From the NCBI RefSeq assembly GCF_019683595.1, contig NZ_JADGHZ010000021.1, forward strand, positions 1 to 36,018: 36,018 bases of DNA, in the 5' to 3' direction. Position numbers and translations under genes: made by a program. Below the pieces are notes generated by a model. That model did not search any database. It was not told where the DNA came from and saw nothing but the letters and a program-made list of their open reading frames with translations. This document shows positions 11,825 to 13,935 of this stretch, one piece after another; position 1 is the stretch's first letter; every line of letters begins with the position of its first letter. The stretch comes from Sphaerobacter sp. Lineage in GTDB: Bacteria; Chloroflexota; Chloroflexia; Thermomicrobiales; Thermomicrobiaceae.

Positions 11825-12273
11825 TGAACCTCCGACTGTGGCGCGGCGCCCGAGCGCCGGGGGTCACCGCGCGATACCCCATCAAGTCTGTCGTCACCCG
11901 TTAGTGTACTACGGTCGTGGGCCGCTCCCGCCTCGAACTCGCCGCCGCCACGCGCGGAATCCCGCCATGCTCCGCCCTTGGTAGCGATCGCAGGGCATCG
12001 GGAATGCAAGAGAAGAGTTCAGGGTTGTTACCTTACGCACTTCTCCCGCGTCCAAGCCAGCGTCCTGCGCGGCCGGTCGCACTTGCGGGGAAGCGACGAG
12101 GGTGGACAAGCAGAACCTCGGCATCCACCTCGTCACCGCGTTTACGGGCGACCCGTCGGGGGAACGTGTCCGTCGGCGCCAGCAAGCCGGCCCGCGGCGA
12201 GCGGAGCTTGCCCGCCGACCGGCCGGGACCGGTGCCAGGCGGGGAGGCGTGATCCAACGAGAGGGCACAGTCC
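11825..12273. other. 449-base divergent intergenic region ahead of nhaA
   Basis: I see no credible gene here. It separates the minus-strand gene at 11821 from the plus-strand nhaA at 12274. A weak minus-strand -10 (TACACT, 11903-11908) could serve the small unknown gene. Within the half next to nhaA, ACGGG and CCCGT (12146-12158) form a short hairpin inside a longer CGTT and AACG pairing, and CGAGG and CCTCG can pair around 12096-12120. The length and the hairpins would suit a structured 5' leader of nhaA, but no known riboswitch consensus can be confirmed by eye. Confidence 0.4.
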
Positions 12274-13935
12274 GTGGAGCAAGCAACTACGGAAGCTGTC
12301 TACCAGCAGCCAATCACGCTCGAGATCCGCATCGAGGCCCGGCAAGGCCGGGAACGGGAGTTCGAGCAATATCTCCGCAGCGTCAACCAGGCAGCAGCGA
12401 ACTTTCCCGGATTCCTCGGAGCTCGGGTGATCCGCCCGCCTCGCGGGAGCCGCGAGTACCGGGTGGTCATGCGGTTCGACAAGAAGGTCAACCTTCAACA
12501 GTGGCTCCAGTCGGAGGAAAAGAAGGGATGGCACGCGCGCGGAGAGGGGCTGGCGGAGAACAGCCCTCGAATCGAGAACATCACCGGCACCGCCCAGGAG
12601 CAGCCCCTTGCCCTGGCGCTCGCGCCCGTCAGCGAATTCGTTCGAACCAGCATCTCGGGGATCGGTCTGTTGCTCATCGGTGCCGTCCTGGCACTGATAC
12701 TGGCTAACTCCCCGTGGGCCGCGGCGTACGAGCACTTCTGGGAAACCGAGTTCACGATCGGCACGGCGTCCTTCGGGATCACCGAGTCGCTCCGCCACTG
12801 GATCAACGACGCGCTGATGGCCCTTTTCTTCTTCACCGTCGGCCTCGAGATCAAGCGCGAGGTCTTGGTGGGCGAGCTTCGGCGCCCGCGTCAGGCAGCG
12901 CTCCCGATCGCGGCCGCCATTGGCGGGGCCTTGACCCCCGCGCTCATCTACCTCGTGCTCAACGCCGGCGATGGCACCATGTCCGGGTGGGGTATCCCGA
13001 TCGGGACCGATACCGCGTTCTCACTCGGTATCCTCAGCCTGCTCGCGGCTCGGGTACCACCGCTGCTCGTCGTCTTCGTCACCGCGTTCGCCATCGTGGA
13101 CGACATCATCGCGGTGATGGTGATCGCGGTGTTTTACACCAATCAGATCGCCTGGCCCTCGCTCGGCTTGGCGGCCATCCTTATCGGGGCACTCGTCGTC
13201 GCCAATCTCGCCGGTTTCCACCGCTGGCCGATCTACGCCTTCCTCGGCCTGGGTGTGTGGCTGGCGGTCTTCCATTCCGGGATTCACGGCACCATCGCCG
13301 GCGTTCTCGTCGCGATGACCGTGCCGTCCCGCTCCTGGATCAACCCGAAGGCGTTCGTGACGCGGGCGCGCGAGCTGCTCGACGAGTTCGAGGCAGCCTG
13401 CGACAGCACGATGCGCATCCTGAGTAACGAGCGCCAGCAGCGTGCGACTCAGGAGCTGGAAGAGCTGGCAGAGGATGTCGAGACGCCGCTGACCCATCTG
13501 CAGCACCGGCTCAACCCGTGGGTGGTCTACGCGGTGCTGCCGCTCTTCGCGTTTGCCAACGCCGGGATTCCGCTGGTGGACGGGCTCGGGGACGCGGTCC
13601 GTAGCCCTGTCACCTGGGGCGTGATCGCAGGGTTGGTGCTGGGCAAACCCCTCGGGATCAGCCTCTTCTCCTGGCTCGCCGTGCGGACCGGCGTCGCCCT
13701 TCTGCCGTCGGACATCTCCTTGCGGGATGTCCTGTCCGTGGCCACGTTGGGCGGGATCGGCTTCACGATGTCGCTCTTCATCTCAGAGCTGGCCTTCGGT
13801 CCGGAAATCTCGGCGGACGATGCACGGATCGGGATCCTGATCGGGTCGGTGGTGATCGGTGCGCTCGGCTACCGGATCCTCCGGACGACGCTCCCACCGC
13901 CTGAATCGGCACCGGAGCTCTCGGACGGCGATTGA
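12274..13935 (+). CDS. nhaA: NhaA Na+/H+ antiporter with N-terminal ABM domain
   Basis: The 553-residue product joins two parts. Residues about 14-100 form an antibiotic-biosynthesis-monooxygenase-like (ABM, ferredoxin-like) domain of the COG3224 type, seen in FPGFLGARVIRPPRG followed by EYRVVMRFD and LQQWLQSEE. Residues about 120-540 are a complete NhaA antiporter: FFFTVGLEIKRE, GTDTAFSLGIL, the ion-binding pair D276-D277 in AIVDDI, and K458 in LGKPLGI. These correspond to D163, D164 and K300 of E. coli NhaA. A long acidic cytoplasmic loop (about 355-420) precedes HRLNPWVVYAVLPLFAFANAGI. The antiporter should exchange sodium or lithium for protons. The GTG at 12274 has GAGAGGG about ten bases upstream and is needed to include the ABM domain. 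A strong terminator follows. Confidence 0.93.
   Translation: MEQATTEAVYQQPITLEIRIEARQGREREFEQYLRSVNQAAANFPGFLGARVIRPPRGSREYRVVMRFDKKVNLQQWLQSEEKKGWHARGEGLAENSPRIENITGTAQEQPLALALAPVSEFVRTSISGIGLLLIGAVLALILANSPWAAAYEHFWETEFTIGTASFGITESLRHWINDALMALFFFTVGLEIKREVLVGELRRPRQAALPIAAAIGGALTPALIYLVLNAGDGTMSGWGIPIGTDTAFSLGILSLLAARVPPLLVVFVTAFAIVDDIIAVMVIAVFYTNQIAWPSLGLAAILIGALVVANLAGFHRWPIYAFLGLGVWLAVFHSGIHGTIAGVLVAMTVPSRSWINPKAFVTRARELLDEFEAACDSTMRILSNERQQRATQELEELAEDVETPLTHLQHRLNPWVVYAVLPLFAFANAGIPLVDGLGDAVRSPVTWGVIAGLVLGKPLGISLFSWLAVRTGVALLPSDISLRDVLSVATLGGIGFTMSLFISELAFGPEISADDARIGILIGSVVIGALGYRILRTTLPPPESAPELSDGD

Follow-up and report, generated by a model that had tools for sequence, protein, structure and literature searches.

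NhaA antiporters are homodimers, and their N-terminus lies on the cytoplasmic side. At low pH, residues R6 and F7 of the N-terminal tail of E. coli NhaA block the cytoplasmic funnel as a plug close to E78, E82 and E252, while the dimer is held together by lipids, cardiolipin among them, at R204, R245, R250 and W258 (PMC13408996). The NhaA dimer has few or weak cytoplasmic contacts, in place of which Thermus NapA relies on an additional helix at its N-terminus (PMC6881326). Deletion of the tail in E. coli NhaA has little effect. ABM-type barrels are formed when two domains pair or by tandem duplication, and the haem-degrading ABM enzymes carry an Asn-Trp-His triad (PMC4835899). In other ABM enzymes an Asn/Trp pair forms part of the active site (N62/W66 in ActVA-Orf6, N63/W67 in SnoaB), where it keeps aromatic substrates in place in these two enzymes and in RslO4 (PMC8093152).

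We have analysed a stretch of 36,018 nucleotides from Sphaerobacter sp. (the window), in which the two families meet in one gene. The gene occupies positions 12274 to 13935 of the + strand, as do all features described below within these limits, and encodes 553 amino acids between a GTG start and a TGA stop. The original prediction of an ABM domain fused to NhaA proved real, as this single protein matches PF03992 and then PF06965. The ABM domain was placed by Pfam at residues 13-89 (12310 to 12540), and its fold extends to residue 102. The match to PF03992 has an E value of 1.2e-10 in the whole protein; for residues 1-111 by themselves it reaches 5.4e-12 and 46.1 bits (cut-off 23.1), which refutes the view that no ABM profile fits this part. 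The profile also matches the fused proteins of genomes G027, G433, G434 and G448 (G000 denotes the source genome and G001 its congener). AlphaFold2 predicted a ferredoxin-like ABM fold for residues 14-102 with a pLDDT of about 90, and Foldseek found solved ABM structures (1x7v, 3fgv, LsrG and SnoaB) with TMt values of 0.76-0.90 among the best. The domain ends in NITGTAQE (residues 102-109, 12577 to 12600), which comprises the last ABM strand and a hinge, is nearly invariant across the fusions and directly precedes the NhaA tail and TM I. Residues 105-110 of the hinge have low confidence in the AlphaFold2 model.

The NhaA domain covers residues 121-536 (12634 to 13881). It matches PF06965 with an E value of 5.5e-140 and 466.9 bits against a cut-off of 23.5, and it exceeds the threshold of the NCBIfam NhaA equivalog TIGR00773 (384.5 against 254). 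AlphaFold2 modelled this half as an NhaA fold, and Foldseek matched it to E. coli NhaA (7s24), with a TMt of 0.90 and 42% identity. Residues 110-124 (12601 to 12645) form a predicted helix that runs into TM I, and the AlphaFold2 model, the alignment and the description of the E. coli tail (PMC13408996) identify them as the native N-terminal tail of NhaA; F122 of this segment corresponds to the plug residue F7 of E. coli and is kept in the fused clade. D246 (13009 to 13011) aligns with E. coli D133 and does not vary among the NhaA proteins compared, whether fused or plain. The ion-binding aspartates D276-D277 (13099 to 13104) align with D163-D164, and K458 (13645 to 13647) aligns with K300, which confirms the earlier view that the NhaA part is complete. 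All four residues are invariant across the fusions, and so are E192, R195 and E196, which correspond to the pH-sensor residues E78, R81 and E82. From the intact transport residues we infer that the fusion would carry out Na+/H+ antiport. About 50 residues between TM VIII and IX (residues 354-403 of the window protein; L020, G000:C257) are extra relative to E. coli NhaA. This segment is present in both fused and plain NhaA of the class and adjoins the dimer interface.

Whether the ABM region is translated at all depends on the start codon. If the start were mis-annotated, translation would begin only with NhaA and leave the ABM region untranslated, and an in-frame ATG or TTG does occur in the linker of the fusions of G027, G040, G434 and G448. 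On the other hand, the linker stretch in G001, G037 and G433 is devoid of a start codon, and in the window protein no in-frame ATG, GTG or TTG occurs between residues 67 and 132. The nearest alternative starts are at residues 52, 64 and 66, within the ABM domain, and at residue 133, within TM I. Accordingly, the NhaA part alone could not be translated from the usual codons, and a downstream start, which had been named as the finding that could overturn the fusion, was rejected for the window gene. In addition, the GTG start lies 8 bases downstream of a likely ribosome-binding site, GAGAGGG (12259 to 12265), where GAGAGGGCACA is kept in the congener. The fusion is 93% identical to that of the congener, and for the ABM part of this comparison the differences by codon position are 5, 3 and 21 and the dN/dS is 0.14-0.17, a coding pattern that also argues against an untranslated region. 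We therefore consider a mis-annotated start extremely improbable. The NhaA part has a dN/dS of 0.05-0.11 in the same comparison. Purifying selection acts on both halves, and the fusion is maintained by selection.

The fusion gene stands alone, flanked by genes on the opposite strand. Two other explanations for its upstream region were discarded: a scan of the window gave no Rfam match that would indicate an upstream RNA switch, and the 195 bases upstream of the fusion occur once in the genome, so that they are not a duplicated promoter. Farther upstream, positions 12120 to 12155 (+) read GIHLVTAFTGDP, and the corresponding stretch before the fusion gene of the congener (L002) reads GIHHVTAFTGDP. 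We take these to resemble the N-terminus of glyoxalase-fold ring-cleaving dioxygenases, a resemblance that then fades, and the stretch is perhaps a gene remnant. A 60-residue peptide from it gave no Pfam match, and the stretch is single in the genome.

The fusion was found in nine of the 61 genomes of the host order, Thermomicrobiales, in eight genera and three families. The frame is open in seven (G000, G001, G027, G040, G037, G433 and G448) and frameshifted in two draft assemblies, within the NhaA half in G434 (L073/L092) and within the ABM half in G446 (L076/L091); these frameshifts are either sequencing errors or decay. Fusions were absent from the other members of the class that were searched and from an even sample of 400 genomes of the phylum. 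Among 396 Actinomycetota genomes only single-ABM matches were obtained, and 249 Gemmatimonadota genomes gave nothing at an E value of 1e-22 in a search that had no positive control. A contig scan with two peptide patterns returned three fusions, all from Thermomicrobiales/Chloroflexi. Two candidates from outside the order, L041 (Gemmatimonadales) and L047 (Actinomycetes), proved to be plain NhaA. Elsewhere, fusions that are more distant could have escaped detection. The scope of Chloroflexota named at first was too broad, because the fusion was found in one order only and is patchy within it. A second, plain NhaA is present in G000, G001, G040 and G446. In G027, G037, G433, G434 and G448 no such protein was detected, but these genomes include several incomplete drafts.

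No conserved neighbourhood was seen around the fusions. In G027, a small gene resembling UBP-type zinc fingers (WVHLRLCLVCGHVGCCDASRNKHATKHFHATAHP; L093) lies immediately upstream of the fusion and is itself preceded by a DHA2-like MFS transporter gene, and in G434 a DHA2-like transporter gene follows the fusion (L092); these genes were named from sequence alone.

Two trees bear on the origin of the fusion. In a tree of 32 NhaA proteins, the eight fused ones form one group with support of 100/100, apart from the plain NhaA proteins of the same genomes. In the ABM tree the fused domains again form one group (100/98), which lies among COG3224-type proteins of Chloroflexota and Actinomycetota that have a single ABM domain and membrane helices of their own, and is distant from the proteins of this order in which tandem ABM domains are joined to a membrane part (ABM-ABM-membrane). 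Since both trees show one group, the fusion had a single origin. The likeness to COG3224-type ABM proteins suggested earlier was right, and the nearest relatives have a single ABM domain with membrane helices. The alignment shows how the halves are joined. The TG of NITGTAQE is common to COG3224-type ABM proteins, in which it is followed by a WF-containing stretch and then by the membrane helices. In the fusions, NITGTAQE leads into the native NhaA tail, LTPLxxFVRTS, for which plain relatives have ITPLEEFIHSE. It is likely that a membrane-bound ABM protein lost its hairpin and became joined to a nearly complete NhaA.

Another reading holds that the ABM domain is an enzyme in need of a membrane, for which NhaA replaced the lost hairpin of the COG3224 type while the two halves function independently. 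The relatives share the ABM domain and its TG motif and have membrane helices after them, which fits such an exchange, as do the partly conserved ABM active site and the finding that neither G000 nor G001 has a separate COG3224-type ABM protein at an E value of 1e-5. However, G433 has a single-ABM protein in addition to the fusion, and the clustering of NhaA changes near the junction, described below, suggests that the halves influence each other. We regard independent halves as unlikely.

In the few kilobases around the single-ABM genes that were inspected, no NhaA gene was found. One of these relatives, L112 in G466, is a single-ABM membrane protein encoded directly downstream of an FMN-reductase-like gene, in a cluster that also holds pirin-like and isochorismatase-like genes; these neighbours, named from sequence alone, may hint at the ligand of ABM domains of this type. 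Proteins with tandem ABM domains and C-terminal membrane helices (L030, L060, L061, L062 and L064) are common in the order, and such a chain could form a barrel without pairing with a second chain.

The fusion could also be an accident without function, in which the ABM domain is passively retained because NhaA is read in its frame and has no other usable start codon. The patchy distribution in nine of 61 genomes of the order, the frameshifted copies in two drafts and the rapid evolution of the ABM domain in some members would all be expected of such a case. Against this, the dN/dS of 0.14-0.17 in the ABM part points to constraint, the residues that define the ABM fold and the NITGTAQE hinge are conserved across three families, and the fusion arose once and has persisted for long. 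An accident of this kind is improbable in our view.

The pocket of the ABM domain was compared with those of the described enzymes. The original prediction had included the processing of haem, which is contradicted by the residues found. With MhuD as a guide, W66 corresponds to W77 and N7 to I18, and the position of this Asn holds I, I, I, A, F, A, F and V in the eight fusions compared and is never Asn. Position 87, equivalent to the His of IsdG, holds H, H, Y, I, L, F, N and S, with His in the two congeners only, and at position 86, where MhuD has its His, the fusions carry W or F. Accordingly, of the Asn-Trp-His triad of IsdG and MhuD only Trp77 is retained; haem degradation is rejected on these residues, and any haem role for the domain appears unlikely. 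Asn73-x3-Trp77 (12490 to 12504) is the equivalent of the active-site pair of ActVA-Orf6 and SnoaB; Trp77 is invariant in all eight fusions, and position 73 is Asn in six and Asp in two. No fusion (0/8) has an equivalent of the strand-1 Asn, N18 of SnoaB. These residues do not support a known ABM reaction, and it is possible that the pocket binds something; a quinone-like aromatic compound, which the original prediction had also proposed, may be sensed or processed there.

A ligand, rather than a reaction, is central to another reading, in which paired ABM domains bind a small hydrophobic molecule (a quinone, another aromatic compound or a lipid) at the membrane surface and open or close the antiporter, so that Na+/H+ exchange would be coupled to the redox or lipid state. 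The invariant Trp77 and the Asn73 kept in six of eight fusions, a pair known to hold aromatic compounds (PMC8093152), favour it, and so do the membrane anchoring of the related single-ABM proteins and the position of L112 directly behind a putative FMN-reductase gene. But the strand-1 pocket Asn is missing throughout, Asn73 has become Asp in two fusions, and the ABM half diverges fast in some members. We consider such a gate possible though doubtful. Its specific form, in which the barrel sits at the cytoplasmic mouth and, by binding a quinone-like or other hydrophobic molecule at the membrane surface, frees or holds the N-terminal plug as a redox or lipid switch, would be rather unlikely.

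Rates of evolution differ between the halves. In the trees, the end branches of G448 and G433 have lengths of 0.92-0.96 for the ABM half compared with 0.27-0.32 for the NhaA half. Faster evolution of the ABM domain than of NhaA in several members fits a scaffold and not a fixed active site.

The NhaA half, in turn, carries changes specific to the fused clade. H408-L409-Q410 (13495 to 13503) align with R250-L251-E252 of E. coli, the cardiolipin and pH-sensor site of TM IX. The first position is His in all nine fusions, compared with Arg in 26 of 33 plain NhaA proteins. The third is Gln in eight of nine fusions, one of which keeps Glu, compared with Glu in 25 of 33 plain proteins; as seven of the 33 plain proteins carry Gln, this residue is not unique to the fusions. 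R317, the counterpart of E. coli R204, is mostly kept, and W318-P319 occupy the positions of E. coli residues 205-206. Of the 19 substitutions specific to the clade, ten are located in cytoplasmic segments (TM I, VI-VII, VIII-IX and TM IX), which make up 89 of 428 sites (Fisher p 0.0017, for segments picked after the list had been inspected). The ten include the changes at E. coli R250, a cardiolipin contact, and at E252, a pH-sensor residue close to the N-terminal plug. The clade-specific substitutions all map to a single long branch, and drift could account for them.

Considering these results together, we favour the tentative reading that the ABM domain is a structural or regulatory cap that does not use haem, in which a paired ABM barrel clamps the NhaA dimer and tunes its gate; we give this a probability of roughly 0.4. 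With one ABM domain in each chain of the NhaA homodimer, a single ABM barrel for the whole dimer would be the simplest arrangement. The two ABM domains of the dimer would pair into this single barrel, which would clamp the dimer on the cytoplasmic side and tether the N-terminal tail that serves as the plug in E. coli NhaA. Such a cap may alter the stability of the dimer or the threshold of pH or Na+ for activation. The intact transport site, the retained pH-sensor residues, purifying selection and the changes near the cytoplasmic interface favour the cap, as do the well-supported fused clade in both trees, the loss of the MhuD/IsdG Asn and of a conserved His, the faster evolution of the ABM half in several members and the position of the NITGTAQE hinge just ahead of the tail. 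On the other side, Trp77 is invariant and Asn73 is mostly kept, and the pocket may still bind something.

An N-terminal ABM domain gives the well-known transporter NhaA a new domain architecture, and no paper on an ABM-NhaA fusion was found in the open-access literature searched; domain databases may have it on record without remark. In this natural fusion the NhaA tail is attached to a folded domain of a kind that normally forms pairs, and the residues beside the plug and cardiolipin site differ from those of plain NhaA. Set beside its form without the ABM domain and a plain NhaA from its own genome, the fusion would provide a direct handle on whether the N-terminus and the cytoplasmic dimer contacts determine the pH response and stability.

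NhaA proteins with an added soluble domain also occur in Actinomycetota (Agromyces L042, Actinomadura L046), where a thioredoxin (DsbA-like) domain is found at the C-terminus. These are alike in carrying a soluble domain on the same chain, but it belongs to another family and lies at the opposite end of the protein. The COG3224-type single-ABM membrane proteins are the closest to the ABM half by sequence and by tree, and share the W-x2-S motif and the TG after the last strand; they have their own membrane hairpin after the ABM domain, whereas in the fusion NhaA takes its place. IsdG and MhuD share the fold and the haem-ruffling Trp (W77), but the fusions are without their Asn and do not conserve the His. 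With the cofactor-independent oxygenases ActVA-Orf6 and SnoaB, the fusions have in common the fold and, in six of eight, the Asn-x3-Trp motif, but they differ in being without the N18 equivalent of SnoaB and in the Asp that replaces Asn73 in two of them. Finally, E. coli NhaA (PDB 7s24, 4au5 and the 9rh1 series) is alike in the whole fold and in the equivalents of D133, D163, D164, K300, E78, R81 and E82. In contrast to its tail of about 12 residues, the fusion has about 110 extra N-terminal residues that form the ABM domain, and the fused clade has His and Gln in place of R250 and E252.
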